Part shown: positions 5,821 to 45,186 of the stretch, piece by piece | Numbering within the stretch: position 1 is the stretch's first letter | How the letters are laid out: each line of letters begins with the position of its first letter | NCBI RefSeq assembly: GCF_002005465.1 | Contig: NZ_CP014691.1 | Location: 1,798,001 to 1,862,000, forward strand | Direction of reading: 5' to 3' | DNA: 64,000 nucleotides | DNA from: Neoasaia chiangmaiensis | GTDB taxonomy: Bacteria > Pseudomonadota > Alphaproteobacteria > Acetobacterales > Acetobacteraceae | Made by a program: the position numbers and the translations under genes | The notes under the pieces: model-generated | What the model was told of the DNA's origin: nothing | Database searches by the model: none | What the model saw: only the letters and a program-made list of their open reading frames with translations

Positions 5821-6029
5821 TGTGGCACGCTGCTGGCGCCTATCATACACCCAGCCTGCCCGGAGATGCAGAGGAAGCTAGGTCATGCCACCCGGATGTG
5901 ACATTCAGATTTTCACGGAAACATCGTGACTGCCGAAAGAACGGCGCTGACGGTGATGGGAACGCGGCGCAACAGCCTGATGAATGAGGCGAGGCGCAGG
6001 CGCCGTTTCGTCACTGACGATGTCGATAT

Positions 6030-6737
6030 TCAGACTGGCACGCGCGCTGCTGCCAGAATGGGGCCGCCCTGCGACGCTTCCACGAGAATAGCCGAACGAA
6101 GGTCCGGATTGCGCGCATCTGGCATCCGATAGCTGTGCGATCCGCCGCTAAAAGTGCCGAGCACGGTGACCTGCCGCACGAGGTTGCGATGCGGGAGAAC
6201 CCGCCCACCGTTCTCGCCGCGCAGGATCGGTACTCTGATAATCTTGGGATCGAAACGCACCAGCACGACAAGCGCCGTTCCGGCATGGCCGGAAATCGTC
6301 ACGTCGAGACCCGAGACGACGATCCGGGGCCCACCCTCGCCACGATCGGCCTGAACGATCGTGCGTTCAAGTTCTGGCCGGTCCGCCCCGACTGTATCCG
6401 CGCGGCCGTTGACGACGATCTCCGGCGTGAACACCTCGCGCCGATGGAACGCGTGAGCATAATCCCACTGGCGCGCCGTGAAAGCCGGTGCGCTGAACGT
6501 ATCTTTCCAGCCGAGATCGTCCCAATAGGTTACTTCCCACGACAGGGTCAGCAGATCGGGGCGATCGGACAATGCCAGAAGATTGGCATTCGCAGGCGGG
6601 CAGGACGAACAACCCTGGCTTTGGAACAGCTCCACCACGGTCGGGTGGTCCGGGTCCGCAGCCATGGCCGGTACCGATGTGCCGACAAGCGCCAACATGC
6701 CGCCCAGTGCGGTGGATATGACGCTTTTGCGCTTCAT
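6030..6737 (-). CDS. DUF1223 exported thioredoxin-like protein
   Basis: A protein of 235 residues with an N-terminal signal peptide (ALGGMLALVGTSVPAMAA) and then the DUF1223 hallmark VVELFQSQGCSSCPPAN, with a CSSC pair at residues 43 and 46. The family has a thioredoxin-like fold and its function is not known. The gene starts 38 bases after the stop of the Met-rich repeat gene on the same strand, with no promoter motif of its own visible, so it is likely co-transcribed from the sigma-F-type promoter at 7203-7228. That would place it in the periplasmic oxidant response, perhaps in disulfide or thiol handling. The role is inference from context. Confidence 0.8.
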   Translation of the reverse strand: MKRKSVISTALGGMLALVGTSVPAMAADPDHPTVVELFQSQGCSSCPPANANLLALSDRPDLLTLSWEVTYWDDLGWKDTFSAPAFTARQWDYAHAFHRREVFTPEIVVNGRADTVGADRPELERTIVQADRGEGGPRIVVSGLDVTISGHAGTALVVLVRFDPKIIRVPILRGENGGRVLPHRNLVRQVTVLGTFSGGSHSYRMPDARNPDLRSAILVEASQGGPILAAARVPV

Positions 6738-6775
6738 GAATACGCCTGCCAGCCGGATAATGCGCGAAGCCCGGC

Positions 6776-7141
6776 TTAGTTCGGCTTCGCCATGCTGTCC
6801 TGCGGCGCGGCCATCGCGTTGTCATGGCTCATGCTGTCGTGGCTCATGCTGTCGTGGGACATCGCGTCCTTCTTCATGCCGTGATGCCCCATGCCACCAT
6901 GCTTCTTCATGCCGCCATGAGACATGCCGTTATGCGACATCGCATTTGGAGCCATCGCATTCGGGGCCATCGCATCGTGCGCCATGCCGTTCTTCGACAT
7001 GCTGTCATGCGCCATCGCGTTCGGCGCCATCTGGTTCGGGGCCATGGCATCGTGCGACATGGTGTCCTGTGCGTGGGCAACGCCACCCAGAGCGACGGCG
7101 GACGAGAAAGCGGCGGCAATGGCGATATTGCGAATAGACAT
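6776..7141 (-). CDS. Periplasmic Met/His-rich pentapeptide-repeat protein (MXKDX / MrpX type)
   Basis: A protein of 121 residues. A signal peptide (IAIAAAFSSAVALGGVAHA) is followed by a low-complexity chain in which Met recurs about every five residues (MSHDA, MAPNQ, MAHDS, MKKHG, MSHDS), giving 18 Met in the last 97 residues with many His. ATG 7141 is chosen because AGGAAA precedes it and the signal peptide begins there. This matches the MXKDX-repeat family and the methionine-rich peptide MrpX, which in Azospira scavenges hypochlorite and is re-reduced by a YedY-type reductase. Here a YedY-like gene lies directly upstream and a sigma-F-type promoter precedes this gene. Metal binding by the His residues is an alternative role. 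Confidence 0.8.
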   Translation of the reverse strand: MSIRNIAIAAAFSSAVALGGVAHAQDTMSHDAMAPNQMAPNAMAHDSMSKNGMAHDAMAPNAMAPNAMSHNGMSHGGMKKHGGMGHHGMKKDAMSHDSMSHDSMSHDNAMAAPQDSMAKPN

Positions 7142-7202
7142 GGTAATTTCCTGATCTGTCGATGATGTGGAGGCGGAAACATTCCGCCTCTCTGTTCTAT
7201 TC

Positions 7203-7228
7203 TTCGGTGAGGCCCGTCGTCGGGTTAC
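7203..7228 (-). promoter_or_regulatory. SigF-type promoter for the Met-rich repeat gene
   Basis: On the minus strand GTAACC (7228-7223) and CGAA (7206-7203) are separated by exactly 16 bases. This is the motif known for Caulobacter sigma-F promoters. It lies 17 bases below the stop of msrP and about 60 bases above ATG 7141. Confidence 0.75.
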
Positions 7229-7244
7229 AGGGGCGCGTCTTTTT

Positions 7245-7994
7245 TTATGACCCGCCAAACCAGTCGTAACCCTGATCTTCCCAATAGCCGCCCGGAAAGC
7301 GATTGGTGACCTCGATGGACGCGAGATATTTCGGATTCTTGTAGCCGAGCTTCGTTGGAATCCGGACCTTCATCGGCGCGCCATAGGCAGGCGGAAGGGC
7401 ACCGTCTCCATAATCCAGCGCCAGTATGGTCTGCGGATGCAGCGCGGTCGCCATGTCGATGCTCGTCGAATAATCGTCGAAGCAGCGAAAATTGACATAT
7501 TTCGCACGCAGATCCGCGCCGACCCTTTGCAGGAACATCGAAAGCGGCACACCGGACCAGTCGCCGATCGCACTCCATCCCTCGACGCAGATATGGCGTG
7601 TAATTTGCCGTTTCTGCGGCAGCGCGCGGAACTGCGCGAGCGACCACGGGCGTCTGTCCGACACCAGACCGTCAACCTCCAGGCGCCACCCAGCGGGATC
7701 GACAGTGCGAACCTCGCTCTCGTCGTAATAGGCGTTGAACGGAAAAGGATGCGTGATCCTGGATGCGTCGAATTCCCGCGCGAGCCGCTGGCGGCTGAAC
7801 AGCATGGCCTGCATCCGGTCGGTGAAACGCGACATCGCGCTGAGCGCACGCTCCACGGATGGCTCGTCGTCCAGCGCACAGCCGGACAGCATCGACAGCC
7901 CACCGAGCGACAGGGCGCCTTTGAGCATCAGACGGCGCTCGATCCGGCGCAGTTCGGGGGCGATCGCCGAGCGATCGAGGCGGTTGTGACTCAT
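7245..7994 (-). CDS. msrP: YedY/MsrP-like molybdopterin methionine sulfoxide reductase
   Basis: A protein of 249 residues of the sulfite-oxidase fold. A twin-arginine leader (ERRLMLKGALSLGGLSML) ends in SGC, so it may also be a lipoprotein. The molybdenum-binding cysteine is Cys136 in RHICVEGWS, and the later KYVNFRCFDD and YGAPMKVRIPTKLGYKNPK are family signatures. It reduces methionine sulfoxide in periplasmic proteins with electrons from a membrane cytochrome. ATG 7994 overlaps the stop of the cytochrome b gene (ATGA), which fixes the start and shows translational coupling. A longer in-frame extension upstream only runs through the cytochrome gene. It resembles the YedY1 branch paired with a b-type cytochrome rather than classic MsrPQ, judged from the partner. 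Confidence 0.88.
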   Translation of the reverse strand: MSHNRLDRSAIAPELRRIERRLMLKGALSLGGLSMLSGCALDDEPSVERALSAMSRFTDRMQAMLFSRQRLAREFDASRITHPFPFNAYYDESEVRTVDPAGWRLEVDGLVSDRRPWSLAQFRALPQKRQITRHICVEGWSAIGDWSGVPLSMFLQRVGADLRAKYVNFRCFDDYSTSIDMATALHPQTILALDYGDGALPPAYGAPMKVRIPTKLGYKNPKYLASIEVTNRFPGGYWEDQGYDWFGGS

Positions 7995-8644
7995 CGGGCG
8001 GCCCCCTCCTGAATGCTCGCTTCCGGCGCCGCGCTGGGACGGCGGCCGAACACCATGCCGAACAGGGTCGACGGCACGAGCAGGGCGAGCGCGATGTGAA
8101 TGACGAGAAAGGCGACGATCAGCGTCATCATCGCGAAATGAATGCGGCGGGCGATATCGTAACCGCCGAACAGCCATGTCAGCCATCCAAGCTGCACCGG
8201 CTTCCAGATGGACAGCCCGCTTGCAACAGTCAGCAGGGCGACAATCAGCACGCCGGTATAAAGCAGCCGCTGGACAGCGTTGTAATGACCGGCGGCATGG
8301 GACAGCCTGAAGCGCAGCGCCTGCGCCATATCACGACCGATGGCGCGCGGGCCGACGGGCCGCAGATCGCGGCGGAAATGCCCCGACAGCACGCCATACC
8401 CCATGTAAACGACACCGGCAGCCATCAGCACCCACATCGCCGCGAAATGCCAGGCGATCCCGCCGCCCAGCCAGCCACCCAACGTGGCCCAGGCCGGGAA
8501 TTCGAAAGGCAGGATGGGCGAGGCATTATAGATCTGCCAGCCACTGCCGATCATGGCGAGCATCGACAATGCGCCGATCCAGTGGGTGATGCGAATAACG
8601 GGCGATGGCGTGCGACGCGGTCGCACGCGGCGTGATGAGAGCAT
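7991..8644 (-). CDS. Cytochrome b561-type membrane electron donor to the YedY-like reductase
   Basis: A protein of 217 residues with four or five membrane helices (WIGALSMLAMIGSGWQIY, FAAMWVLMAAGVVYMGYGVL, LLYTGVLIVALLTVASGLSI, HFAMMTLIVAFLVIHIALAL) and His residues suited to two b hemes (near 21, 66, 169 and 183). It looks like a Ni/Fe-hydrogenase-type cytochrome b561 rather than the ferric-reductase-like MsrQ. It should carry quinol electrons to the molybdoenzyme encoded immediately downstream, with which it shares an ATGA overlap. A sigma-F-type promoter (8714-8689) lies about 45 bases upstream. The product is equivalent in place and kind to YedZ1 of the hypochlorite response. Confidence 0.82.
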   Translation of the reverse strand: MLSSRRVRPRRTPSPVIRITHWIGALSMLAMIGSGWQIYNASPILPFEFPAWATLGGWLGGGIAWHFAAMWVLMAAGVVYMGYGVLSGHFRRDLRPVGPRAIGRDMAQALRFRLSHAAGHYNAVQRLLYTGVLIVALLTVASGLSIWKPVQLGWLTWLFGGYDIARRIHFAMMTLIVAFLVIHIALALLVPSTLFGMVFGRRPSAAPEASIQEGAAR

Positions 8645-8688
8645 GTCCGGACTTTCCGACTGAATGGTCAGGCGTTGATGCGGATGCG

Positions 8689-8714
8689 TTCGTCGGTCAG
8701 GCGCGAAAGGTTAC
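8689..8714 (-). promoter_or_regulatory. SigF-type promoter for the cytochrome b and msrP operon
   Basis: Minus strand GTAACC (8714-8709), 16 bases, CGAA (8692-8689). It is divergent from the next promoter with 46 bases between them, so both operons can be switched on together. The expected transcript start is about 35-40 bases before ATG 8644. Confidence 0.78.
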
Positions 8715-8760
8715 AGTTTCCGCCATCTCCTGACGGAAATAAAAAATTCTTCTTGCCCGC

Positions 8761-8786
8761 GTAACCGGACAGGGAATTTTCGCGAA
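8761..8786 (+). promoter_or_regulatory. SigF-type promoter for msrB-msrA-sigF-nrsF
   Basis: GTAACC at 8761-8766, 16 bases, CGAA at 8783-8786; the gene start follows at 8823. Because the sigma factor gene lies in this operon, the site implies positive autoregulation. Confidence 0.78.
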
Positions 8787-8822
8787 GAACGCTGTGACAA
8801 CCCAAAACAAGGGGGACACAAC

Positions 8823-9284
8823 ATGACATCCCGCCGCCAGTTCTTTCTTGCCGCCGTTGCCATGGCGGCATTCGGCCGCGCACGGGCCACCGGGCATTAT
8901 CCCGTCACGCATACCGACGCCGAATGGCACCGCCTGCTGACGCCCGCGCAATACAATGTGCTGCGCGAGGCAGGCACCGAAATGCCGTATTCGAGCCCAT
9001 TGCTGACTGAGCATCGCCCCGGCCGCTTCGCCTGTGCCGGATGCGACACGGCAGCCTTCGACGCCCGCACGAAGTTCGACAGCGGCACCGGCTGGCCGAG
9101 TTTCGACAGCGCCCTGCCGCACGCCGTGCAGGAACGTGGCGATGACAGCCTGGGCATGGAACGCACGGAGGTGCGGTGCGCGACCTGCGGCAGTCATCTC
9201 GGCCACGTGTTCGATGACGGACCGCAGCCAACGGGCCTGCGCTACTGCATGAACGGCGTGGCACTCTCGTTCCATACGGCCTGA
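8823..9284 (+). CDS. msrB: Exported peptide-methionine (R)-S-oxide reductase MsrB
   Basis: A protein of 153 residues that reduces the R form of methionine sulfoxide. It opens with a Tat-like leader (SRRQFFLAAVAMAAFGRARA), so it should act outside the cytoplasm. Zinc ligands are the CAGC (71, 74) and CATC (119, 122) pairs; GTGWPSF and the catalytic Cys142 in RYCMNG are present. GGGGG lies seven bases before the ATG. It is the first gene of the operon driven by the promoter at 8761, and msrA follows after 13 bases. An exported MsrB next to an exported MsrA covers both sulfoxide isomers. Confidence 0.93.
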   Translation: MTSRRQFFLAAVAMAAFGRARATGHYPVTHTDAEWHRLLTPAQYNVLREAGTEMPYSSPLLTEHRPGRFACAGCDTAAFDARTKFDSGTGWPSFDSALPHAVQERGDDSLGMERTEVRCATCGSHLGHVFDDGPQPTGLRYCMNGVALSFHTA

Positions 9285-9297
9285 AGGAGCTGAAATC

Positions 9298-10005
9298 ATG
9301 ACACGATCAGGACTTTTCGGCGTTTCCCTGATGGCGCTGACCACATTCGGCGCCGCCTGCCACACGGCAATGGGCGAACCCGGTCCCCATATTCTTCCGG
9401 CACCCGTCCTGGCGGAACCGGCACCCGCGACGCACCATGCCAGCGCCGTCTTCGCGGGTGGCTGCTTCTGGGGCGTGCAGAGCGTGTTCGAACATATCCG
9501 TGGCGTGACCGCGACCCGCGCGGGTTTCGACGGCGGCGCGCGCGACACGGCGGATTATGAAACCGTCAGCAGCGGCGATACGGGACACGCAGAATCGGTC
9601 GAAGTCGATTTCGATCCGACGCAGGTCAGCTACGGCACGCTGATGCGCATCTTCTTTTCCGTCGCCCTCGACCCGACACAGGTGAACCGCCAGTTCCCGG
9701 ATGACGGCACGCAATATCGCTCCGTGCTCTATACCCGCTCCACCGAACAGGCACGGGAAGCGCACGCCTATATCGCACAGCTCGACGCGGCGCATGTCTT
9801 CGCGCGGCCCATCGCAACGCAGGTGACGCCGGATCATGGATTCTACCCGGCCGAGGCGGATCACCAAAATTTCGCGGCCCGCTATCCGGATCACCCATAT
9901 ATCGCTACATATGACGCACCACGGATCGAGGCGCTGCACGCGTTGTTCGCATCGTCCTGGCGCCCGCAGCCTGTGCTGACGCTGGCCGACGATGGCGGGA
10001 GCTGA
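9298..10005 (+). CDS. msrA: Exported peptide-methionine (S)-S-oxide reductase MsrA
   Basis: A protein of 235 residues. A hydrophobic leader (LFGVSLMALTTFGAACH) is followed by a Pro/Ala linker and the MsrA core beginning VFAGGCFWGV, with catalytic Cys56. HAESVEVDFDP, QYRSVLYT and FYPAEADHQNF are family motifs. Total length exceeds the cytosolic form because of the leader. The leader may end in a lipid-modified Cys21, although the -3 residue does not fit well. It sits between msrB (13 bases) and the sigma factor gene (29 bases). The reducing partner for a periplasmic MsrA is not evident in the window. Confidence 0.93.
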   Translation: MTRSGLFGVSLMALTTFGAACHTAMGEPGPHILPAPVLAEPAPATHHASAVFAGGCFWGVQSVFEHIRGVTATRAGFDGGARDTADYETVSSGDTGHAESVEVDFDPTQVSYGTLMRIFFSVALDPTQVNRQFPDDGTQYRSVLYTRSTEQAREAHAYIAQLDAAHVFARPIATQVTPDHGFYPAEADHQNFAARYPDHPYIATYDAPRIEALHALFASSWRPQPVLTLADDGGS

Positions 10006-10034
10006 CTCCCGCCGTAACCAGGGATGGAGGGTTC

Positions 10035-10565
10035 GTGACGGAAGCGGATTGGAGCCGCTGGATGGCAGCGGCTCAGGCCGGCGATGCCGATGCCTATCGC
10101 CGCGTGCTCGCCGAGGCGCAGGCATGGCTGAGACGCTTCTTTCTCCGGCGCCTGCCGCCATCCATGGTTGACGACGCCGTGCAGGACACGCTGCTGGCCG
10201 TTCACGAGAAACGGCATACATTCAATCCGTCCCAGAAGTTCGGTCCCTGGATCGCCGCAATCGCCCGATACAAATGGATCGACCGGTTGCGGGCCACCAG
10301 CCGGGTGGACGATGCACCGCTCGACGACGACCTGCCGGTGCAGGATCATGAGGAGCAGGTGACGACGGCCCATGCGCTGGAGCGCCTGCTCGGACAGCTG
10401 AAGCCCGCGCAGGCGGAAACCATCCGCCTCGTCAAGCTGCGCGGATTGAGTATCGAGGAGGCGGCACGCCAGACGGGACAGTCCGCCACGCTGGTCAAGG
10501 TCAACATTCATCGCGGTCTGAACCGCATGAATGCTTTAGTAATGCGAGGTAGTGATGTCGACTGA
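10035..10565 (+). CDS. sigF: ECF RNA polymerase sigma factor, SigF type
   Basis: A protein of 176 residues with sigma region 2 (DDAVQDTLLAVHEKRHTF, FGPWIAAIARYKWIDRLR) and region 4 (LKPAQAETIRLVKLRGLSIE, then a helix-turn-helix ending NIHRGLNRM). The start is GTG 10035 with GGAGG five bases upstream. The 3' end overlaps the DUF1109 gene, as in known sigF-nrsF pairs. The three GTAACC-N16-CGAA promoters nearby are the expected targets, including its own operon. In Caulobacter and Azospira this sigma factor answers oxidative stress, metals or hypochlorite through its membrane anti-sigma partner. Confidence 0.88.
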   Translation: MTEADWSRWMAAAQAGDADAYRRVLAEAQAWLRRFFLRRLPPSMVDDAVQDTLLAVHEKRHTFNPSQKFGPWIAAIARYKWIDRLRATSRVDDAPLDDDLPVQDHEEQVTTAHALERLLGQLKPAQAETIRLVKLRGLSIEEAARQTGQSATLVKVNIHRGLNRMNALVMRGSDVD

Positions 10566-11196
10566 TCCCTTGATCGATCGGCTCGCGACCGGCCTGCGTC
10601 CCGTCAGACGGCGGACGCCGTGGCGGGACGCGACGATCCTGCTGGCGCTGGGCGCGATCGAGATCGTCTTCGTGCTGAAGCTGGGCCTGATGCGTCCGGA
10701 TATGCCGCACGCCATGGGAATGCCGAGCTTCTGGTGGAAGGCCGTGAGCCTGGCCGTGATCGCCGCCGTCGGCGGGACGACGGCGCTCCTGTCCCTCGAT
10801 CCCACACGCTCACCACGACGGGGTCTGCGCATCGTGGGCATGCTCGCCCTCGCGGCGCTCGCGCTCGGCTGGCTGGTGGATGTGCTTCAGGCCGGTCCCG
10901 CCGTGCTCTGGCAGCGGCTCGATCCGACGCACGGCATCGTCTGCGCACGGAAAATCGTGGAATTATCCCTGCCGGCGGTGCTGGCACTCGGCCTGTTCGC
11001 GCGGCGCGGCGCACCGGTGGATGCGCGCGGCACGGCCTGGGCAGTGGGCATCGCCGCCGCGGCCTTTGGCGCGCTGGCCTTCGTGCTGGCCTGTCCGTTC
11101 GACGACCCGCTTTATGTCGCCGTCTGGTATTCGGCGGCCTGCGGCGTCGTGACACTCGTGACACGTCTGGTCCTGCCGCCACTGACCCGCTGGTAG
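10555..11196 (+). CDS. nrsF: NrsF-type membrane anti-sigma factor (DUF1109)
   Basis: A protein of 213 residues with six predicted membrane helices. A short cytosolic N-terminus (MSTDPLIDRLATGLRPVRRR) should hold the sigma factor. Two conserved cysteines stand in GIVC (130) and LACPFDDPLY (180); in NrsF such cysteines are linked to signal sensing. ATG 10555 is preferred over GTG 10552 because GAGG is well placed; either way it overlaps the sigF stop by about ten bases, giving coupled synthesis. It would keep SigF inactive until oxidants or metals modify it. Confidence 0.88.
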   Translation: MSTDPLIDRLATGLRPVRRRTPWRDATILLALGAIEIVFVLKLGLMRPDMPHAMGMPSFWWKAVSLAVIAAVGGTTALLSLDPTRSPRRGLRIVGMLALAALALGWLVDVLQAGPAVLWQRLDPTHGIVCARKIVELSLPAVLALGLFARRGAPVDARGTAWAVGIAAAAFGALAFVLACPFDDPLYVAVWYSAACGVVTLVTRLVLPPLTRW

Positions 11197-11204
11197 GGTG
11201 AACA

Positions 11205-11228
11205 CCGCCATCCGGATCCGGATGGCGG
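11205..11228. terminator. Bidirectional hairpin between nrsF and yghU
   Basis: A perfect 24-base palindrome with arms CCGCCATCCGGA and TCCGGATGGCGG lies between two convergent genes. The T run on either side is weak (GGTTTT on + about ten bases later), so this is a likely but not ideal terminator. Confidence 0.5.
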
Positions 11229-11266
11229 CCGAGGGCCGGTTTTCAGCGGGACCGGTCCACGAAACA

Positions 11267-12142
11267 TCAGCCTTGGGCAAGCCGGTCCTGCGTTTTCGTC
11301 TCGAAGTCGGACGCATCATGGCGTTCGTGCAGCTGGCCTGACGGCTCGCCGACCATACGGTTGACCATTCGACCACGCCGCACGGCCGGGCGTTCGAGCA
11401 GCCGGTCCGCCCAGGCCCGGACATGCGGATAGTCCTGTACATTCAGGAACGTGGCGGCATCGTTATACATCCAGCCTTCCACGAGGCCGCCATACCATGG
11501 GAAGATCGCCATATCGGCAATCGTGTAATCATCGCCTGCGATGAACGGGCTTTCGGCAAGCCGTCGGTTGAGAACGTCGAGCTGACGTTTGGCCTCCATG
11601 GTGAAGCGGTTAATCGCGTATTCGATTTTCTCCGGCGCATAGGCATAAAAATGCCCGAAGCCGCCGCCGATATACGGACCGCTTCCAACCTGCCAGAACA
11701 GCCAGTTGAGACACGCCGTTCGACCCACGATATCCTTCGGCAGGAACGCATCGAATTTCTCGGCAAGATACAGCAGGATGGAGCCGGATTCGAACACATT
11801 CAGCGGCCTGTCCAGACTATGATCCACGAGCGCCGGAATCTTGGAATTCGGATTCACGTCGGTAAAACCGGAACCGAACTGATCGCCCTCCCCGATGCGG
11901 ATCAGCCACGCATCATACTCGGCGCCCGCATGACCCGCCGCCAGCAGCTCTTCCAGCATGATCGTGACCTTCACGCCGTTCGGCGTCCCCAGCGAATAGA
12001 GCTGGAGCGGATGGCGACCGACAGGAAGCGCCTTCTCATGCGTGGGGCCTGCGACCGGGCGGTTGATGCTGGCGAATGCGCCACCATTCTGGGCATTCCA
12101 TGTCCAGACCGGCGGCGGCATATAGGTGTTCGATGAAGACAT
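11267..12142 (-). CDS. yghU: YghU-like glutathione S-transferase / disulfide-bond reductase
   Basis: A protein of 291 residues, the length usual for YghU. It has the N-terminal extension before the thioredoxin fold, then LYSLGTPNGVKVTIMLEELL, the glutathione-site DVNPNSKIPALVDHS and ESGSILLYLAEKF, and a helical C-terminal domain (DYTIADMAIFPWYGG). YghU proteins bind two glutathione molecules and reduce organic hydroperoxides and disulfides. It is the last gene of a minus-strand run that starts near 17.1 kb, 18 bases after another GST gene. It converges with the SigF operon, with a hairpin between. Confidence 0.85.
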   Translation of the reverse strand: MSSSNTYMPPPVWTWNAQNGGAFASINRPVAGPTHEKALPVGRHPLQLYSLGTPNGVKVTIMLEELLAAGHAGAEYDAWLIRIGEGDQFGSGFTDVNPNSKIPALVDHSLDRPLNVFESGSILLYLAEKFDAFLPKDIVGRTACLNWLFWQVGSGPYIGGGFGHFYAYAPEKIEYAINRFTMEAKRQLDVLNRRLAESPFIAGDDYTIADMAIFPWYGGLVEGWMYNDAATFLNVQDYPHVRAWADRLLERPAVRRGRMVNRMVGEPSGQLHERHDASDFETKTQDRLAQG

Positions 12143-12160
12143 GTAACGGACCTTTCGCGA

Positions 12161-12859
12161 TTATGCCGGGAAATTCGAAGGATAGAGCGCGCGCAGCGCT
12201 TGCTCGTCCATCTCGCTCTTGAAGGTATGGGTGGCCATGAGGGCGCGGGCACGGGCAACGGCCGGACGTGCGTTCACAAGGTTCATGAAGCGCACCAGAT
12301 TAGGCCAGGGTGCCAACGGTGTGTCTGACCCTTTCATCACGCGCGGCGCGCGGTCGAGCCAGCCCCATGCCGACATATCGGCGATGGTATAATCCTCACC
12401 GACGACGAAGGCGCGGCCTTCCAGATGGTCGTTCAGCACCTGATAATGCCGCTCTATCTCCCGCCGGTAGCGGTTGACGGCATAATCGAGCCCGCCGGGC
12501 GCGGCATACTGGAAATGCACGGCCTGACCGGAAAACGGGCCGAGGCCGGTGCCCAGAAACATCAGCCAGGACAGGAGCTCCGGACGGTCGGCATCGGTGC
12601 CGAGGAACCGACCCGTCTTTTCAGCCAGATAAAGAAGAATGGCCGTGGAATCGAAGACGCGCGCCTCATGGCCGCCGGGGCCGTCCGTATCGACGATGGC
12701 CGGAAGCTTGCCGTTCGGATTGATCCTGCGGAAAGCCGGCGCGTGCTGCTCCCCCTTGCTGGTATCGATCGGCACGGCTTCATAGGGAAGTCCGGCCTCC
12801 TCCAGGAACAGCGCGATTTTCGCGGGGTTCGGTGTCGGGTGGTAATAGAAGCGGATCAT
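12161..12859 (-). CDS. Glutathione S-transferase family protein
   Basis: A protein of 232 residues with an N-terminal thioredoxin fold (MIRFYYHPTPNPAKIALFLE, INPNGKLPAIVD, FDSTAILLYLAEKT) and a helical C-terminal domain (VVGEDYTIADMSAWGWLDRA). It resembles the GST branch with Asn or Ser as the catalytic residue. ATG 12859 is chosen because AGGA precedes it and the domain begins at once; a longer in-frame start at 12898 has no ribosome site. It probably conjugates or reduces electrophiles. Gaps of 18 bases to yghU and about 165 bases to the upstream SDR gene suggest one transcript. Confidence 0.85.
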   Translation of the reverse strand: MIRFYYHPTPNPAKIALFLEEAGLPYEAVPIDTSKGEQHAPAFRRINPNGKLPAIVDTDGPGGHEARVFDSTAILLYLAEKTGRFLGTDADRPELLSWLMFLGTGLGPFSGQAVHFQYAAPGGLDYAVNRYRREIERHYQVLNDHLEGRAFVVGEDYTIADMSAWGWLDRAPRVMKGSDTPLAPWPNLVRFMNLVNARPAVARARALMATHTFKSEMDEQALRALYPSNFPA

Positions 12860-13024
12860 GGGCGTCCATCCTTTCGATATGTCGGCCGGGATACTCATGG
12901 TGGGAAAAATGACGACTGTTGTGGAGAAGACCGGTGCGGGACCGGCGTTTCATTCAGCCGCAGGGATCGTTCCCGCAGGACGAGCATTACCCCGTCAGAG
13001 GCCGGATCGGGCGCCAGCGCCACC

Positions 13025-13735
13025 TCAGGCTCTTCCGATCGAAGCGCCACCGTCGATATGCAGGGTCTGCCCCGTCATGAACGATGCGTCTTCCGACAGC
13101 ACGAACGCGATCGCCGCCGCCACTTCCTCCGGTCTTCCGAACCGCTTCATGGGGACGCCCGACAGATAGCGTTTTTCACCATCGCTGCCGGGCATGTTGT
13201 TGGCGCGAAACAGTTCGGTCTCCGTCGGACCAGGAGCGACGGTGTTGACCGTGATCCCGGTCGTGGCAAGTTCGAGGGCCCACCCCCGCGAAAAACTGAT
13301 CAGTGCCGACTTCGCCGCGGCATAGGCGGTCCGTTGCACGGCCCCAAGGGCTGTCAGGCTGGATATGTTGACGATGCGTCCCCAGCCACGCGCCTTCATC
13401 CCCGGCAGAAAGGCCTGGGCCGTCAGGACAGCCGGGTGAAGATTGACCCGCATGACCTCGTCGAGAGCGGACAAGGAAACCTCTTCAAGATATTGCGCTC
13501 TGACGAGGCCGACGTTGTTGACGACACCATCGACATCGTACCGCTCCGCGAGCTCGGCGCACAGGCGTGCCGTTGCATCGCTATCGGCAAGATCCGCCTG
13601 CACAAGGGTGCCAGGAAAGCCATCCGTGCGATTGCGCGCCAGGCCGATGACGCGATGGCCCTGCTTCGCCAGATTATGCGCCAGAGCAAGACCGATGCCC
13701 TTGCTGGCGCCGGTAATCAGAAAGGTTCGTTGCAT
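13025..13735 (-). CDS. Short-chain dehydrogenase/reductase
   Basis: A protein of 236 residues, a classical SDR with the cofactor motif TGASKGIGLAL, NNVG, the catalytic Ser in NISS, the Tyr-Lys pair YAAAKSAL and the tail ASFMTGQTLHIDGG. It will reduce a carbonyl or oxidise an alcohol with NAD(P)H; the substrate is unknown. Beside an old yellow enzyme and GSTs it may reduce reactive aldehydes or ketones. It lies 93 bases downstream of the carboxymuconolactone decarboxylase-like gene on the same strand. Confidence 0.85.
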   Translation of the reverse strand: MQRTFLITGASKGIGLALAHNLAKQGHRVIGLARNRTDGFPGTLVQADLADSDATARLCAELAERYDVDGVVNNVGLVRAQYLEEVSLSALDEVMRVNLHPAVLTAQAFLPGMKARGWGRIVNISSLTALGAVQRTAYAAAKSALISFSRGWALELATTGITVNTVAPGPTETELFRANNMPGSDGEKRYLSGVPMKRFGRPEEVAAAIAFVLSEDASFMTGQTLHIDGGASIGRA

Positions 13736-13828
13736 TGTCAGGTCTCCGGGATTGGGCGGGAGGCGGCGAAAAAGAGATCGCAGACCAGGTCACGTCGCGT
13801 TTCGACGCCTGCGGTCCCCTGCCTTTTT

Positions 13829-14245
13829 TCAGAGGAGGCCGCGATGTCCGGCGTAACCGGCCGTCTTGTCCAGGCCGCGCTCTGCGATGATCGTCGTTGC
13901 GATCGGCAAAACGCTCGAAATCGCCGGAAAGCCGACATAAGGGAGCATCTGGATCAGCGCTTCCTCGATCTCGCGAAGCGGCATGCCATGATCGAGCGCG
14001 AAATTCATATGCAGGCCGAATTCATGCGGCTGTCGCAGCGCCACCATGACCGTCATGGTGATGAGACTTCTGCGCGCCTGATCCAGGCCATCGCGCGTCC
14101 AGATATCGCCAAAAACGTGATCGATGGCGTATCCGGCAATATCGGCCCCGAACGTGTTGGACGCGGCGGCGGCGGCAAGCCGCTCGGACGGCGCAGCCCC
14201 CATCAGGGCGCGTGTTGCCGCATTGCCTTTTTCTCTCGGTGTCAT
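13829..14245 (-). CDS. Carboxymuconolactone decarboxylase-family protein
   Basis: A protein of 138 residues containing the PF02627-type helices (GDIWTRDGLDQARRSLITMT, LRQPHEFGLHMNFALDHG, EIEEALIQMLPYVGFPA). This branch (YurZ/PcaC-like) lacks the CxxC of AhpD: His and Glu remain but no cysteine pair is visible. ATG 14245 has GGGAG seven bases upstream; an in-frame upstream start has no such site. The function may be a ring-opening decarboxylase or a stress protein of unknown activity. It lies between the peroxiredoxin-like and SDR genes. Confidence 0.78.
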   Translation of the reverse strand: MTPREKGNAATRALMGAAPSERLAAAAASNTFGADIAGYAIDHVFGDIWTRDGLDQARRSLITMTVMVALRQPHEFGLHMNFALDHGMPLREIEEALIQMLPYVGFPAISSVLPIATTIIAERGLDKTAGYAGHRGLL

Positions 14246-14335
14246 CGTCTGTCTCCCATTTTGCAAAGCCTCTTTCCACGGCACCTGACGTGCGCCGGGC
14301 CGAAGCGATCGCTCGAACCGACCCGGCGCGCCGGA

Positions 14336-15010
14336 TCAGGCCGTGACGCTCGCCGCCTTGCGCAGGGCCGGCAGCATGTCTTCTGGCTCCGGGCGGCGGG
14401 TATAGTCCGGGTTGACCTCGGCATAGAGAATCACACTGTCCTGACCGATCACGAAGCGGCCCGGCATCGGCAAGGTCCAGCTGTCGTCACCGTTGAAGCC
14501 CGGCAGATCGTTCTTCAGGTTCCGGTAGAGTTCGACGAGATAATCCGGCAGCGCGAAACGCAGGCCGAATTTTGCGGCCACATCGTTATGCGTGTCCGAC
14601 AGGATCGGGAAATCAAGCGCGTTCTGGCGCACCGACTTGCGGCTGTTGACCGCCGTCTGCGGCGAGATGGCGATCAGGTTCGCGCCAAGTTCGCGGAACG
14701 ACGGCAGCGCGGCTTCGAGCGCCTGTAGTTCCATGTTGCAGTAAGGGCACCAGACTCCGCGATAGAAACTCACGACCAGCGGGCCCTTCGCCAGAAGATC
14801 GGCGGAGGAAACGGGATTGCCTTCCGGATCGTTCAGCGTGAAACCCGGGGCCCTGTCACCGGCCTTGAGCGCCTTCTCGGCAGCACCGGCGGCAATCAGT
14901 TCGGCAGTGGCACGGTGCATCACCTCGATGACCGCATGCGGCACGTTATAGGGCGGCTTGCCGGCTTCGAAATCGGCCTTGAAAGCATCGAGTTTTGCCT
15001 GAAGTGACAT
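14336..15010 (-). CDS. Peroxiredoxin-like protein (AhpC/TSA, thioredoxin fold)
   Basis: A protein of 224 residues with about 50 helical residues at the N-terminus, then FTLNDPEGNPVSSADLLAKG and PLVVSFYRGVWCPYCNMEL, the active pair being Cys88 and Cys91. It resembles the AhpC/TSA branch often placed beside old yellow enzymes and GSTs, and is likely to reduce peroxides. It lies below the palindrome at 15096-15112, which may be a second regulated entry point in the cluster, and about 90 bases above the CMD gene. Confidence 0.85.
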   Translation of the reverse strand: MSLQAKLDAFKADFEAGKPPYNVPHAVIEVMHRATAELIAAGAAEKALKAGDRAPGFTLNDPEGNPVSSADLLAKGPLVVSFYRGVWCPYCNMELQALEAALPSFRELGANLIAISPQTAVNSRKSVRQNALDFPILSDTHNDVAAKFGLRFALPDYLVELYRNLKNDLPGFNGDDSWTLPMPGRFVIGQDSVILYAEVNPDYTRRPEPEDMLPALRKAASVTA

Positions 15011-15095
15011 GGTCGTTTCCTTTGTCAGTCGTTGCGATATGCTTGAGATAGAGCGGTCTGCTGCATGGGGGATGACGGCTCGGACGACTATCGGT

Positions 15096-15112
15096 CATTC
15101 CGGGCCGGAATG
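15096..15112. promoter_or_regulatory. Palindromic site CATTCC-N5-GGAATG, candidate LysR box
   Basis: CATTCCGGGCCGGAATG lies in the gap between the old yellow enzyme gene and the peroxiredoxin-like gene, about 85 bases above the latter. It contains the T-N11-A spacing of LysR boxes and shares both outer arms with the palindrome at 17123-17139 in front of the LysR gene. Confidence 0.5.
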
Positions 15113-15117
15113 GGGTC

Positions 15118-16212
15118 TCAACCCACGGATTCAAGCGCCGGATAATCGGTGTAGCCATGCGCATCGCCGCCGTAGAAGGTCGAACGGTCATACGGGTTCA
15201 GCGGCAGATTGCGTCGCAGACGCGCCGGCAGATCGGGGTTGCTGATGAACGCCCGCCCGAAAGCGACGGCATCGGCGTCGCCCGCCCGGATGATCGCCTC
15301 GGCACTGGCGCCATCGAAACCGCCGGCGGCGATGAGCGTGCCGCTGAACGCACCGCGCAAATGCCGGGCCGCGACCGCATCGCTCTCGGCGATCAGTTCC
15401 GTGCCCTTGATGCGCGGCTCGACGACGTGGAGATAGGCGATGCCCATTTCGTCCAGCTTCTCCGCGACATAGCCGAAGGTCTCCTGCGGGTTGCTGTCGG
15501 ACATCGAACCGTAAGTGCCGCTTGGGCTCAGCCGCACGCCGACACGGTCCGCACCCCACACATCGATGGCCGCCTGCGTCACTTCCAGCAGGAAGCGCGC
15601 GCGGTTTTCGATCGGGCCGCCATATTCATCGGTGCGGTGGTTGGTGCCGTCCTGCAAAAACTGGTCGGGCAGGTAACCATTCGCACCGTGGATTTCCACA
15701 CCGTCGAAACCGGCCGCTTTCGCACGCGCCGCGCCCTGGCGGAACTGCTCGATCACGCCGGGAATTTCATGAAGCGCCAGCGCACGCGGCATCGAGAACG
15801 GCGCCGGCCCGTTCGGCGTGTAGGCATCGCCTTCCGCCTGGATGGCGGAGGGGGCCACGGGCGCGCCACCGTCCGGCTGAAGATCGCGGTGGGACTGCCG
15901 TCCGACATGCCAGAGCTGCATGACGATCCTGCCGCCGCCGGCATGCACGGCGTCGGTCACCGTGCGCCAGCCCTCGATCTGCGCATCGTCGTAAATGCCG
16001 GGCGCCCCGGCATAACCATATCCCTCCCGCGCGACAGGCGTGGCTTCGGACACGATGAGGCCACCATGCGATGTGCGCTGGGTGTAGTATTCGCGCATGA
16101 GCGCACCGGCCTTGTCACCGGGTTCCGAACGCATGCGGGTGAGCGGCGCCATGACGACCCGATGGTCGAGCGACAGCGCACCTGCCCTGAAAGGCGTGAA
16201 AAGCATGGACAT
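15118..16212 (-). CDS. Old yellow enzyme family alkene reductase (NemA-like)
   Basis: A protein of 364 residues, a normal length for this FMN TIM barrel. Motifs include PLTRMRS near the start, GYGYAGAPGIY, LWHVGRQSH, the substrate-binding pair in EIHGANGYLPDQFLQDGTN, and the phosphate-binding AAGGFDGASA and VAFGRAFISNPDLP. It uses NADPH to reduce activated C=C bonds in quinones, maleimides and nitro compounds. ATG 16212 is fixed by AGGAAA upstream. The stop of the adjacent GST gene lies 25 bases away on the same strand, so they form an operon. NemA of E. coli is likewise controlled by an electrophile and hypochlorite sensor. Confidence 0.92.
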   Translation of the reverse strand: MSMLFTPFRAGALSLDHRVVMAPLTRMRSEPGDKAGALMREYYTQRTSHGGLIVSEATPVAREGYGYAGAPGIYDDAQIEGWRTVTDAVHAGGGRIVMQLWHVGRQSHRDLQPDGGAPVAPSAIQAEGDAYTPNGPAPFSMPRALALHEIPGVIEQFRQGAARAKAAGFDGVEIHGANGYLPDQFLQDGTNHRTDEYGGPIENRARFLLEVTQAAIDVWGADRVGVRLSPSGTYGSMSDSNPQETFGYVAEKLDEMGIAYLHVVEPRIKGTELIAESDAVAARHLRGAFSGTLIAAGGFDGASAEAIIRAGDADAVAFGRAFISNPDLPARLRRNLPLNPYDRSTFYGGDAHGYTDYPALESVG

Positions 16213-16237
16213 GATGTTTTCCTTGATGGGGATGATG

Positions 16238-16873
16238 TCAGTCTTGCGGGACAAGCGCTTCAACACGGGCGATGCCGCGTTGCACGGCCGGGCGTGCTTC
16301 GACCGTTTCGTACCAGCGGGCGACATGCGGTGCGTCGTCGAACGTCACGTTGGGAAAGCCACGACGCCACAGCCAGCCGAAATGGGCGATGTCCGCGATG
16401 GTGAAGTCCTCCCCGGCAACAAAGGGACGGTCCGCCAGCACGCCATCGAGCACGCCCAGCGTGCGTGTCGCTTCAGCGGCGAAACGCTCGATGGCAAGGG
16501 GCTGAGGCTCGGCGGCAAAGCGCTGGAAGAAGCCGGACTGGCCGAAAGCCGGACTCAGACCGGAGGCGTGAAAGAAAAGCTGCTCGAAAACGCGGGCGCG
16601 CTCCTCGCCACCGGCCGGCAGGAGCCGCCCGGTTTTCTCGGCGAGATAAACGAGGATTGCCGCCGATTCCGTAAGGACGAACGGCTCGCCGCTCTCGGGC
16701 GTGTCGACCAGGACCGGCACCTTGCCGTTGGGATTCAGCCTGAGGAACGCCGGCGTCTTCTGTTCGCCCTTGCGGACATTGACGCCGTGCAGCGTATAGG
16801 AAAGCCCCAGTTCCTCCAGCGCGATCGGCACCTTGACGCTGTTGGGCGTCGCGAAAGCATAGACATCAAGCAT
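16238..16873 (-). CDS. Glutathione S-transferase family protein
   Basis: A protein of 211 residues, a two-domain GST (MLDVYAFATPNSVKVPIALE, LNPNGKVPVLVDT, ESAAILVYLAEKTGRLLP, then VAGEDFTIADIAHFGWLWRR). The catalytic residue of this branch is probably Ser or Asn near position 11. AAGGAG lies nine bases before ATG 16873. It is the first well-supported gene of the minus-strand detoxification run and overlaps by eight bases the end of a small upstream frame. The LysR gene is divergent from it. Confidence 0.87.
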   Translation of the reverse strand: MLDVYAFATPNSVKVPIALEELGLSYTLHGVNVRKGEQKTPAFLRLNPNGKVPVLVDTPESGEPFVLTESAAILVYLAEKTGRLLPAGGEERARVFEQLFFHASGLSPAFGQSGFFQRFAAEPQPLAIERFAAEATRTLGVLDGVLADRPFVAGEDFTIADIAHFGWLWRRGFPNVTFDDAPHVARWYETVEARPAVQRGIARVEALVPQD

Positions 16874-17096
16874 CGTCGTTTTCTCCTTCTTGGCGGGCTT
16901 GCGGGCCGGAGAGGACATGCCCGACCAACGCCAGCAGGGCATGAAGCGGGCTGCCGGTGAGCTGGAAGGCGAGCATGCCGTGCGCGATGGCCGGTTCGGA
17001 CGCCGCGACAATGAAGGGTCCGAACATCGGGTCTTCTTTCTCTCTGGCCCGGCCTGTCCGGGCGAAGAAGACGATATCGTCCATGCCGCTCGACAT
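16866..17096 (-). CDS. Possible small hydrophobic protein ahead of the GST gene
   Basis: A frame of 76 residues (or 53 from an internal ATG) reading FGPFIVAASEPAIAHGMLAF and then LTGSPLHALLALVGHVLSG, which could form one or two membrane helices. Its stop overlaps the GST start by eight bases, which suggests coupling. The ribosome site is poor and I do not recognise a family. It may be only leader sequence. Confidence 0.35.
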   Translation of the reverse strand: MSSGMDDIVFFARTGRAREKEDPMFGPFIVAASEPAIAHGMLAFQLTGSPLHALLALVGHVLSGPQARQEGENDDA

Positions 17097-17122
17097 GGCA
17101 GTCGTCTCGGGGCGATAAAGGT

Positions 17123-17139
17123 CATTCCTCGGAGGAATG
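17123..17139. promoter_or_regulatory. Palindrome in front of the LysR gene, candidate autoregulatory LysR box
   Basis: CATTCCTCGGAGGAATG is a perfect palindrome (arms of eight around one G) with T-N11-A spacing. It covers the ribosome site of the LysR gene and lies between that gene and the divergent detoxification operon. The outer arms match the site at 15096-15112. Confidence 0.5.
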
Positions 17140-17141
17140 GC

Positions 17142-18026
17142 ATGGACCGATATCAGGCAATGACCACGTTCGTGCGCGTGGTGGAAACAGGCTCGTTCTC
17201 AGCCGCGGCACGTCAGCTTGGCGTGGGGCAGCCGGCGGTCTCCAAGACCGTGGCGCAACTCGAGGCCCGGCTTCAGGTCAGCCTGCTGATCCGCACCACG
17301 CACGGCCTGACGCCGACCGAGGCCGGGCAGAACTTCTATGAACGCGCGCGCAACGCCATCCAGGAGGCGGACGAGGCGGAACGCGCCGCCAAAGGGGCGG
17401 GCATCGGGCTGTCCGGGCGATTGCGGGTGTCGGCGGCGACGACGTTTTCGCGCCTGCATGTGATTCCGAAATTGCCTGAGTTTCTGGCGGCGCATCCGCA
17501 ACTCGATGTCGATTTCCTCCTCGACGACCGGATGATCGATCTCGTGGCGGAGGGCGTCGATATCTCCCTGCGCATGGGCGCGCTTTCCGATTCCACCGCC
17601 GTTGCGAAAAAAATCGCGACCGGCCGGCGATCGGTCATCGCAACGCCCGCCTATCTGGCGCGCGCGGGAATACCGCGGCACCCTGCGGATCTCGCGAACC
17701 ACGACACCGTCATCTACAGTCAACTGCCGAGCGTCTGGTCGTTCACGCGGGATGGGGCGGCGGTGTCGGTTTCCGTCTCGGGACGGCTGCGCGTCAGCGC
17801 CGCCGAAGGATTGCGCGCCGCGATACTGGCGGACATGGGCCTGACCATCACGTCGGACTGGATGTTCGCACCGGAACTGGAACACGGCGCCGTCGTGCGG
17901 GTGCTGGAAGGATGGTCGTTGCCCCCCATCGATCTCTGGGCCGTTTTTCCGGCCGGTCGCATGATGACCGCGAAAGCACGCCAGTTTGCCGAATTCGTCG
18001 GGGATCTCATGAATTCGACGCCGTGA
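17142..18026 (+). CDS. LysR-family transcriptional regulator
   Basis: A protein of 294 residues with an N-terminal winged helix (FVRVVETGSFSAAARQLGVG, QPAVSKTVAQLEARLQVSLL, TPTEAGQNFYERA) and a substrate-binding domain typical of the DsdC/AaeR-like group near oxidoreductases. The start ATG 17142 follows GGAGG; longer in-frame frames only read through the upstream region. It is divergent from the GST, old yellow enzyme and peroxiredoxin operon and is its likely regulator, since two matching palindromes with LysR-box spacing lie before that operon and inside it. The inducer is probably a reactive electrophile, but this is inference. Confidence 0.9.
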   Translation: MDRYQAMTTFVRVVETGSFSAAARQLGVGQPAVSKTVAQLEARLQVSLLIRTTHGLTPTEAGQNFYERARNAIQEADEAERAAKGAGIGLSGRLRVSAATTFSRLHVIPKLPEFLAAHPQLDVDFLLDDRMIDLVAEGVDISLRMGALSDSTAVAKKIATGRRSVIATPAYLARAGIPRHPADLANHDTVIYSQLPSVWSFTRDGAAVSVSVSGRLRVSAAEGLRAAILADMGLTITSDWMFAPELEHGAVVRVLEGWSLPPIDLWAVFPAGRMMTAKARQFAEFVGDLMNSTP

Positions 18027-18045
18027 ACGGTCCCGCCACCCACTC

Positions 18046-18693
18046 TCAGAATGGAAGCTCCCGCCCGGCGACACCGGCATGTCGTTTTACGTGTGCAAGC
18101 GCCATGTCGATGGCGAGTTCCAGCGGACGGGTTTCGCGGCTCGTTTTCGCCAGAACTATTCCGCCCTGGACCGCCGCGACCATCGCCACGGCCATGGCAG
18201 CGACATCCGTATCGGCGTCCAGCTGACCGGCCCGCCGCATCCGGCACAAGCCGTTCTCAATGACACTGCTCCAGCTTGAAAAGCTTTGCCTGAGCTGAAG
18301 CCTTGCTTCTTCCGACCGTGTTGCCAACTCGTTGGCCAGCGAGCCGATCGGACAGCCGCCAATGCCGCCACCGGCCCGGAACGCCGCAATAATCATGTCG
18401 CCCCATGCACGCAACGCGACGAAGGAATCCAGCGCACCGAGGGATTGTGCGTTGGCGGCCACGATCCGACTGGTTTGCAGGTCAATGACATCGCGGATGA
18501 GCGCCTGTTTATTGGCGAAGTAATGATAAAGCTGGGATTTGCTGGTGTTCGTCACGTCCATCACAGTGTCGAGGCTCACGTTTTCAGCGCCGTGCAGATA
18601 AATCAACTCGGCGGCCGCCTCGACGATACGCTGCTTCGTCGCCGCGCCACGGGGCGTCAACGGGCGGTTTGCAATCGTCCTCTCGCGGGTCAT
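18046..18693 (-). CDS. TetR-family transcriptional regulator
   Basis: A protein of 215 residues. The DNA-binding helices are RIVEAAAELIYLHGAENVSL, DTVMDVTNTSKSQLYHYFAN and KQALIRDVID; the C-terminal ligand domain has GGCPIGSLANEL. Two cysteines (in GGCPIG and in LCRMRR) could sense oxidants or electrophiles, as in NemR, but that is a guess. It is divergent from a peroxiredoxin-like gene, and the 85-base gap between them holds a perfect 20-bp palindrome, so it likely represses both. It converges with the LysR gene. Confidence 0.9.
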   Translation of the reverse strand: MTRERTIANRPLTPRGAATKQRIVEAAAELIYLHGAENVSLDTVMDVTNTSKSQLYHYFANKQALIRDVIDLQTSRIVAANAQSLGALDSFVALRAWGDMIIAAFRAGGGIGGCPIGSLANELATRSEEARLQLRQSFSSWSSVIENGLCRMRRAGQLDADTDVAAMAVAMVAAVQGGIVLAKTSRETRPLELAIDMALAHVKRHAGVAGRELPF

Positions 18694-44596: not shown

Positions 44597-45046
44597 ATGC
44601 CACAACTCTCCCTTCATTCTCCGCTCGGTCCCCTCACGATTTCCGAGGACGAGGGCCATATCGTCGCCCTCGACTGGGGATGGGGCCGGGATCAGGCGGA
44701 GACGCCGCTCCTGCTGCGCGCGCGTGACATGCTGGATCGCTATTTCGATGGCGAGGCCGTTGTTTTCGACCTGCCGCTCGCACCATTCGGCACTGCCTAT
44801 CGGCAACGTGTCTGGCAGGCGTTGCAGACGGTCCCGCATGGCACGACCACCAGCTATCAGGCCCTGGCTGCCCGCGTTGGCGGGTCAGCGCGCGCCGTTG
44901 GCGGTGCGATGGGCGCGAACCCGATCCCGATCATCATCCCCTGCCACCGTGTTCTGGGCGCCAGGGGGCTGGGCGGTTATTCCGGCATGGGCGGGCTCGA
45001 CGACAAGCGCATCCTGCTGACCCTCGAGGGGTATTTCGACGACTGA
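44597..45046 (+). CDS. ogt: Methylated-DNA-protein cysteine methyltransferase
   Basis: A protein of 149 residues that removes methyl groups from O6-methylguanine in a suicide reaction. [20 protein letters not shown], the catalytic cysteine in [10 protein letters not shown] and the following GLGGYSGM are diagnostic. The N-terminal domain is short, as in Ogt. ATG 44597 begins a few bases from the divergent mnmE gene. Confidence 0.93.
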
Positions 45047-45186
45047 CCGCGGCGGGTTCCTTTCACGTCTTCGGGATATCGGATGAATTCGGACCGGCCC
45101 GGTGCATCTTCCATGACCGCTGTGACGTTGGGGCCATTACCACCAATCCCGGGGTGCATCGATGCCCCCATGTGGGAGATCTGGTC

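Follow-up and report, generated by a model that had tools for sequence, protein, structure and literature searches.

Gene content and control of the block

The stretch of Neoasaia chiangmaiensis DNA analysed here (the window: 64,000 nucleotides of contig NZ_CP014691.1, positions 1,798,001 to 1,862,000) carries at 6030–11196 a block of eight contiguous genes for a SigF-like sigma factor of the extracytoplasmic function (ECF) class, its putative membrane anti-sigma factor NrsF, and six proteins, predicted to be exported or membrane-bound, linked to methionine and thiol oxidation. The genes form two divergent strings. From the centre outward, the minus strand carries the genes of cytochrome b561, the MsrP-like molybdoenzyme, mrpX and DUF1223, and the plus strand carries msrB, msrA, sigF and nrsF (Table 1). 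Reading frames and family searches (Pfam and NCBIfam) gave the gene identities; they confirm the contiguity of the eight genes and support the combination of an oxidant sink with repair enzymes, both of which had been proposed in an earlier sequence-only reading of this DNA. The gene of the cytochrome shares 4 nt with that of the molybdoenzyme, and the sigma factor gene shares 14 nt with nrsF. For the MsrP-like enzyme the internal ATG at 7994 was chosen as the start, the mechanical frame starting at 8186.

Table 1. Genes and promoter matches of the block (window coordinates)
Feature	Position	Strand	Match and remarks
DUF1223 gene	6030-6737	-	PF06764, E 1e-52, 179.6 bits; predicted exported; CSSC (C43, C46); Q clade
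mrpX, Met-rich MxKDx repeat protein (MrpX-like sink, predicted exported)	6776-7141	-	TIGR02953, E 1.5e-20
YedY/MsrP-like molybdoenzyme	7245-7994	-	PF00174, E 2.8e-30; lipobox LSGC (C39), Mo-site C136
Cytochrome b561-family membrane partner	7991-8644	-	PF01292, E 7e-22
MsrB, predicted exported, twin-arginine-like N terminus	8823-9284	+	PF01641, E 4.9e-46; four zinc-type Cys and catalytic C142
MsrA, predicted exported	9298-10005	+	PF01625, E 8.5e-52; catalytic C56
ECF sigma factor, SigF-like	10035-10565	+	PF04542, E 6.8e-11; adjoins nrsF
NrsF (DUF1109) membrane anti-sigma factor	10552-11196	+	PF06532, E 1.1e-40; C131, C181
SigF/ECF16-type promoter, GTAACC-N16-CGAA, exact	8761-8786	+	ahead of msrB-msrA-sigF-nrsF
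SigF/ECF16-type promoter, exact	8689-8714	-	ahead of cytochrome b561-msrP
SigF/ECF16-type promoter, exact	7203-7228	-	ahead of mrpX-DUF1223

The anti-sigma factor scores 140.1 bits against PF06532 (cut-off 26.8) and is encoded beside the sigma factor. Both key cysteines, C131 and C181 as in Caulobacter, are present; in an alignment of 19 rows the former is invariant and the latter nearly so. These features support the identity of the SigF/NrsF pair. For the sigma factor the best NCBIfam subfamily is PRK12539, at 140.6 bits under its cut-off of 171. The Met-rich protein has no Pfam match, its assignment resting on the MxKDx family TIGR02953 (72.9 against a cut-off of 41), and it is also rich in histidine.

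The three promoters match exactly the ECF16/SigF consensus described in PMC3511200 and PMC3420878 (statements on published work refer, here and below, to the portions of the cited papers that were available). The exact pattern occurs nine times in the genome (3,407,860 bases) and the reversed pattern six times; given the genome's own motif rate, the Poisson probability of three exact promoters within 5,167 bases is ~4e-7. One more place in the window (45035-45060) matches with one mismatch. At this tolerance the window holds four matches, an ordinary number compared with shuffled sequences (mean 2.3); the weight of the promoter evidence lies in exactness and placing, not in the count at one mismatch. 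A scan of 5900-11500 with the sigma-70 consensus gave no site (shuffles expect 1.3). Each of the three predicted transcription units has one exact promoter, and control of the block by a single switch, as the sequence-only reading had claimed, is therefore supported as a prediction.

DUF1223 lies 38 nt behind mrpX. The gap contains a hairpin, but its stretch is no more stably folded than shuffled sequences (z -0.2), and a search for terminator-like sites gave none in it; co-transcription with mrpX is the simplest reading for DUF1223. On the other side of mrpX, a strong hairpin (7169-7191, minus strand) lies in the 5′ leader directly behind the promoter. Its place is kept in relatives and its sequence changed, with two-sided changes in five of eight consensus pairs among 11 sequences and a weak consensus energy of -1.3 kcal/mol.

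Proposed function and its alternatives

Taken together, the block is very probably a SigF/NrsF (ECF16-type) regulon that keeps the methionines of the cell envelope reduced. Its genes, promoter matches, conservation, cysteine pattern and a fold prediction were observed, and from them we infer induction, electron flow and substrates. NrsF would tether SigF to the inner membrane. Oxidants such as hypochlorite or peroxide may be sensed through the two conserved cysteines of NrsF, and perhaps through methionines facing the periplasm, whereupon the sigma factor would be released; this step is drawn from experiments in Caulobacter, Bradyrhizobium and Brucella. Free SigF would then drive the three promoters, ahead of msrB-msrA-sigF-nrsF, the cytochrome-MsrP pair and mrpX-DUF1223. 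The Met-rich protein would absorb the oxidant, while oxidised methionines may be repaired along two routes: one through the membrane-anchored molybdoenzyme, presumably fed with quinol electrons via the b561 cytochrome, and the other through the exported one-cysteine MsrA and MsrB, presumably fed by thiols. DUF1223, predicted to be exported and to have a thioredoxin fold with a redox-type CxxC, could add a thiol function, most likely as reductant for the Msr enzymes or in the repair of oxidised thiols.

The molybdoenzyme belongs to the domain family PF00174. Its Mo-site cysteine is kept in all 36 aligned MsrP rows, one of which (L083) is frame-shifted further upstream; the lipobox L-[STG]-G-C is found in 35 of them (the 36th, L083, is out of frame there), preceded by a twin arginine in 34. 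The enzyme is accordingly predicted to be a lipoprotein of the twin-arginine translocation (Tat) pathway, encoded beside a b561 cytochrome and not beside MsrQ. To our knowledge, MsrP of E. coli is not a Tat lipoprotein. The sole Pfam match of the cytochrome is PF01292, and no match to the MsrQ/ferric-reductase family was obtained. The proposal of a YedY-like reductase with a b-type cytochrome thus holds for the two genes, with a partner of the b561 family instead of YedZ/MsrQ.

A sulfite oxidoreductase, or one acting on other sulfoxides, instead of a reductase for protein methionine sulfoxide, is an unlikely identity for this enzyme. It would account for a score under the MsrP cut-off, for a cytochrome that is not MsrQ-like, and for the sulfite oxidases among the weaker PDB matches. 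The best PDB match, however, is 1xdq (listed there as a bacterial sulfite oxidase), which we take to be YedY of E. coli, and the neighbouring genes encode a Met-rich protein together with MsrA and MsrB.

The exported MsrA and MsrB have their catalytic cysteine in 28 of 28 and 27 of 27 rows, respectively, and the four zinc-type cysteines of MsrB are likewise present in all 27. No conserved resolving cysteine was found in either set of rows; apart from the catalytic and zinc-type residues, the most widely shared cysteine column reaches 12/28 in MsrA and 11/27 in MsrB and lies in or before the signal region. By this cysteine pattern, neither enzyme is of the two-cysteine type recycled by thioredoxin. 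The other MsrA of the genome has a GCFWC motif and a C-terminal cysteine. The pattern of the exported pair raises the question of which reductant serves these one-cysteine enzymes.

Several published systems resemble the block. Like the system of Azospira and of perchlorate-reduction islands, where SigF/NrsF is accompanied by yedYZ and mrpX, it combines the sigma and anti-sigma factors with a Met-rich protein and a YedY-type enzyme with its cytochrome, and two of those islands also hold msrA and msrB whose products are predicted to be exported (PMC4623255). Unlike those islands as described, the block has msrB-msrA within the sigF operon, a divergent cytochrome-msrP pair and an added DUF1223. 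Its cytochrome is of the b561 family. EcfF/OsrA of Bradyrhizobium is likewise an ECF16 sigma factor with a DUF1109 anti-sigma factor and controls three methionine sulfoxide reductases, one predicted periplasmic; its targets are scattered and DsbD-like genes are co-regulated, whereas the targets here lie in one block (PMC3420878). In Brucella, BcrS/AbcS (ECF16 sigma and anti-sigma factors) lie beside, and control, genes for a Met-rich protein and an MsrPQ-like pair (bcrXQP), are induced by hypochlorous acid (HOCl) and have promoters matching GTAAC...CGAA; unlike here, msrA is absent from the main text and DUF1223 is not named in the part available (PMC8315932). Gene sets around chlorite dismutase include a DUF1109 anti-sigma factor labelled 'RCS-sensing', the cognate sigma factor and Msr enzymes of either type, in a chlorite dismutase context and, in the available table, with no DUF1223 named (PMC9751292).

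Since published SigF-type systems already include Msr genes, in perchlorate islands as exported MsrA and MsrB (PMC4623255) and in the EcfF regulon (PMC3420878), the extension put forward in the sequence-only reading is not new in kind. Its observation of the gene block is confirmed and its interpretation partly supported; novelty of the added MsrA and MsrB and rarity in acetic acid bacteria are not supported, and completeness could not be demonstrated. In the portions of the literature available, no description of the arrangement in acetic acid bacteria was found, nor any of DUF1223 membership, of a one-cysteine exported Msr pair in this setting, or of the spread among acetic acid bacteria. 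The block is predicted to be a real, well-conserved SigF-type regulon for envelope methionine repair and a variant of the known bleach-defence system. What appears new is the placing of the Q clade of DUF1223 in SigF regulons, the exported MsrA and MsrB with no resolving cysteine, and the predicted Tat-lipoprotein MsrP-like enzyme with its b561 cytochrome.

The signal might also be of another kind: the block would be controlled by SigF, with metal or thiol stress (copper, chromate, cadmium) as the main stimulus and the Met- and His-rich protein chiefly a metal binder. SigF of Caulobacter does respond to chromate and cadmium (PMC3511200), and the Met-rich protein of the window is also rich in His. 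We nevertheless regard this as very unlikely, as the block holds two repair routes for methionine sulfoxide, the Brucella counterpart is induced by HOCl (PMC8315932) and hypochlorite detoxification is the role described for the counterpart in perchlorate islands (PMC4623255).

Several points weigh against the envelope methionine-repair reading. NrsF scores 71.8 bits for the NCBIfam equivalog AntiSigF_NrsF, whose cut-off is 300, and the molybdoenzyme 89.2 bits for the MsrP equivalog, whose cut-off is 207; because both scores fall short, orthology with the experimentally tested NrsF and MsrP proteins appears loose. No SigF motif was found directly upstream of DUF1223 in the window; the mrpX promoter, on which DUF1223 would depend, is ~465 nt ahead of its start. 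In S. meliloti, RpoE7, also an ECF16 sigma factor, was not induced by H2O2, cadmium or chromate (PMC6180224), and a version of the DUF1223-like protein SrlA altered at a cysteine of its CxxC still complemented the salt phenotype (PMC9561847).

DUF1223 as a candidate member of SigF regulons

The gene in the window is the only DUF1223 gene of the genome. Its product is over the PF06764 cut-off and was modelled with a predicted local distance difference test score (pLDDT) of 87 and a predicted template modelling score (pTM) of 0.84, the CxxC motif (C43-x-x-C46) lying at a helix start of a thioredoxin fold. CxxC is present in 20 of 20 rows and T104-P105 is invariant in 18; in our reading of the predicted fold, T104-P105 sits at the cis-proline position of thioredoxins. 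The closest structures are 2axo (Z 22.2 over 197 residues, 2.9 Å) and 5y1a (Z 16.4), with thioredoxins at Z ~9. A thioredoxin-like assignment of DUF1223 has been published (PMC3091736). The S. meliloti protein SrlA, a homolog of Atu2684/2axo and hence DUF1223-like, has a thioredoxin fold and a predicted signal sequence; it is needed for peroxide tolerance, its mutant being sensitive to H2O2 and cumene hydroperoxide. SrlA is controlled by CenK-CenR, and in the text available its phenotype is not tied to ECF sigma factors (PMC9561847). For the family as a whole, no ECF link was found in the portions of the literature available.

The regulation of DUF1223 was compared across the 79 NrsF loci described in the next section. 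Matches occur in 21 of them, those in L081 (Acetobacter sacchari) and L082 (Gluconacetobacter diazotrophicus) being partial; there an N-terminal part alone, at ~4.0-4.4 kb, lies downstream of mrpX. A SigF motif (at most one mismatch, spacer 15–17, within 450 nt) lies upstream of 16 of the 19 DUF1223 genes of NrsF loci, two of which (L123, L127) are near-copies, as against 2 of 19 in the antisense control. Among the three genes with no such motif, those of L105 and L110 come after msrB-msrA, with a motif ahead of the group, and that of L100 has one ~1.4 kb ahead. In 22 further or overlapping NrsF genomes, DUF1223 was found in 17, at 28 places; with three fragments excluded and three places unscored, the motif precedes 17 of 22 genes (3 in the antisense and 1 in the reversed control), several of these genes being shared with the first test. 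No EcfF-type motif was found at the three main DUF1223 copies of Bradyrhizobium/Afipia type (L292-L294).

A residue before CxxC separates these genes. In a comparison of 87 DUF1223 genes (nine unscored; spacers 15–17, 420 nt), the motif precedes 18 of the 22 that carry EL[FY]Q or EL[FY]E, here called the Q type, and 10 of the 56 with T (p ~2e-7, a value that ignores shared ancestry). In a quick tree of 85 rows, SrlA not among them, all 27 Q-type rows, including the window's, fall on one side of a branch with a Shimodaira–Hasegawa-like approximate likelihood ratio (SH-aLRT) of 99; the motif accompanies 22 of these rows, which include some genes twice. Within a sample of 200 Acetobacteraceae genomes, four further Q-type genes occur in three genomes, all with NrsF. 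DUF1223 and NrsF co-occur weakly: DUF1223 is present in 38 of the 94 genomes with NrsF and in 26 of the 106 without it (p 0.022). A spacer-16 motif is found within 450 nt ahead of 8 of 37 DUF1223 genes in the NrsF genomes (antisense 1/37, reversed 2/37) and of none of 26 in the others; with spacers 15–17 and 420 nt the counts are 10/34 and 1/22.

These counts bear on whether DUF1223 is a mere passenger beside mrpX, outside the SigF response. Such a role would fit its lack of a motif directly ahead and its patchy occurrence: none of the 19 loci of the same layout holds a complete DUF1223 (the parts in L081 and L082 being N-terminal), and no DUF1223 match was obtained anywhere in the nine other sampled genomes with the layout. 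We consider it improbable all the same, given the contrast in motif frequency between Q-type and other DUF1223 genes elsewhere and the short distance, within ~6 kb, between NrsF and DUF1223 in 9 of the 38 genomes where both occur, one of the nine being the window's. Membership of DUF1223 in the regulon, part of the sequence-only reading, is better supported than that reading could show.

As to function, we propose tentatively, and with rather little confidence, that the Q clade is a SigF-controlled envelope thiol protein that serves as reductant of the one-cysteine MsrA and MsrB or repairs oxidised thiols. The nine layout genomes lacking DUF1223 speak against the former role, and an obligate partnership with the exported Msr enzymes was rejected because DUF1223 is missing from the other copies of the layout. 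If the proposal is true, SigF regulons would combine a sacrificial methionine sink with a quinol-driven and a thiol-driven repair arm. For DUF1223, a family of unknown function, the analysis offers a predicted regulatory setting and a role open to testing; the assignment of its Q clade to SigF regulons is the most useful part.

Distribution of the layout and other motif sites

The best 80 matches of an NrsF-alignment scan of the genome collection gave 79 distinct loci, which were annotated with the window proteins. In 21 of them msrB-msrA lie directly ahead of sigF-nrsF, and in 19 the layout of the window is present with motifs (GTAAC-N16-18-CGAA) at all three places, several of the 19 being close kin or near-copies. 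Because the layout recurs in this way, the grouping of the genes is not due to chance, and rarity of the layout in acetic acid bacteria is not supported. Carriers are Tanticharoenia, Acetobacter sacchari (two loci), Gluconacetobacter diazotrophicus PA1 5, Brytella, Acidomonas, Nguyenibacter, six Asaia, Gluconacetobacter sacchari, Gluconacetobacter dulcium, Acetobacter sp. DsW_063, A. nitrogenifigens, Swaminathania and Acetobacteraceae strain KSS12. Some copies have gaps: msrP is missing from L085, where the cytochrome match is also short; mrpX gave no match in L095; and L083 has msrP divided between two frames and msrB broken into two pieces. Endobacter (L097) and Rhodovastum (L147) have msrB-msrA ahead of sigF-nrsF in an otherwise different layout. 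A search for the same gene set across the family, which the sequence-only reading had suggested, also found it to recur: NrsF is over its cut-off in 94 of the 200 sampled Acetobacteraceae genomes, and 9 of 40 loci fetched from the sample have the layout.

Over 10,953 bases, the A. sacchari locus L081 and the Ga. diazotrophicus locus L082 have 99.9% identity; the Ameyamaea locus L156 has 99.1% identity with L081 across 8,184 bases, and the window shares 91-93% identity with Tanticharoenia, L081 and L082. In Kozakia baliensis the block, with no DUF1223, is on plasmid pKB14400_3. Judging from these comparisons, the block is mobile among acetic acid bacteria, with assembly contamination as a possible confounder. 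A bleach-type defence would then be both widespread and mobile in these bacteria; the complete genome of Ga. diazotrophicus PA1 5 carries the block.

That the regulon is complete, as had been claimed, is not demonstrable: a fourth exact motif (C1:1384588-1384613; L005, L163) lies ~110 nt upstream of the point where dsbD, the genome's only DsbD_TM gene, probably starts. This motif falls within the first codons of a divergent gene, presumably for an HrpB-like helicase. DsbD_TM matches occur in 20 of 22 related genomes (26 loci), and in no case do the 1,500 nt upstream of the match contain an exact motif; four loci (L172, L173, L185, L186) have a match with one mismatch and spacer 17, 221-222 nt before the membrane domain and within the gene. 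As the exact motif is not kept upstream of dsbD in relatives, it was treated as chance, and an electron-supply arm through dsbD under SigF was rejected; the co-regulation of DsbD-like genes described for Bradyrhizobium differs in this respect (PMC3420878). Among 20 genomes with no NrsF match (28 DsbD_TM loci), two Acetobacteraceae loci have an upstream motif, L213 with one mismatch and L214 exact, in each case before a second DsbD_TM match, at a distance of 515 and 524 nt, respectively.

Besides the dsbD site, five exact sites lie outside the block: four (L001, L003, L004, L009) are inside listed reading frames, that of L003 being doubtful as a gene, and L002 is ahead of a short frame resembling short-chain dehydrogenases/reductases (SDR). 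A search for further members with a looser motif had no power, as the genome matched it at 45 places and its reversed form at 81.

Adjoining the block, 11267-18690 encodes glutathione S-transferases (one YghU-like by the Kozakia annotation), an SDR, a protein of the carboxymuconolactone decarboxylase family, AhpC/TSA, a member of the old yellow enzyme family and a TetR regulator. This stretch contains no SigF motif, even with one mismatch allowed. Parts of this cassette remain beside the sigF block in relatives.

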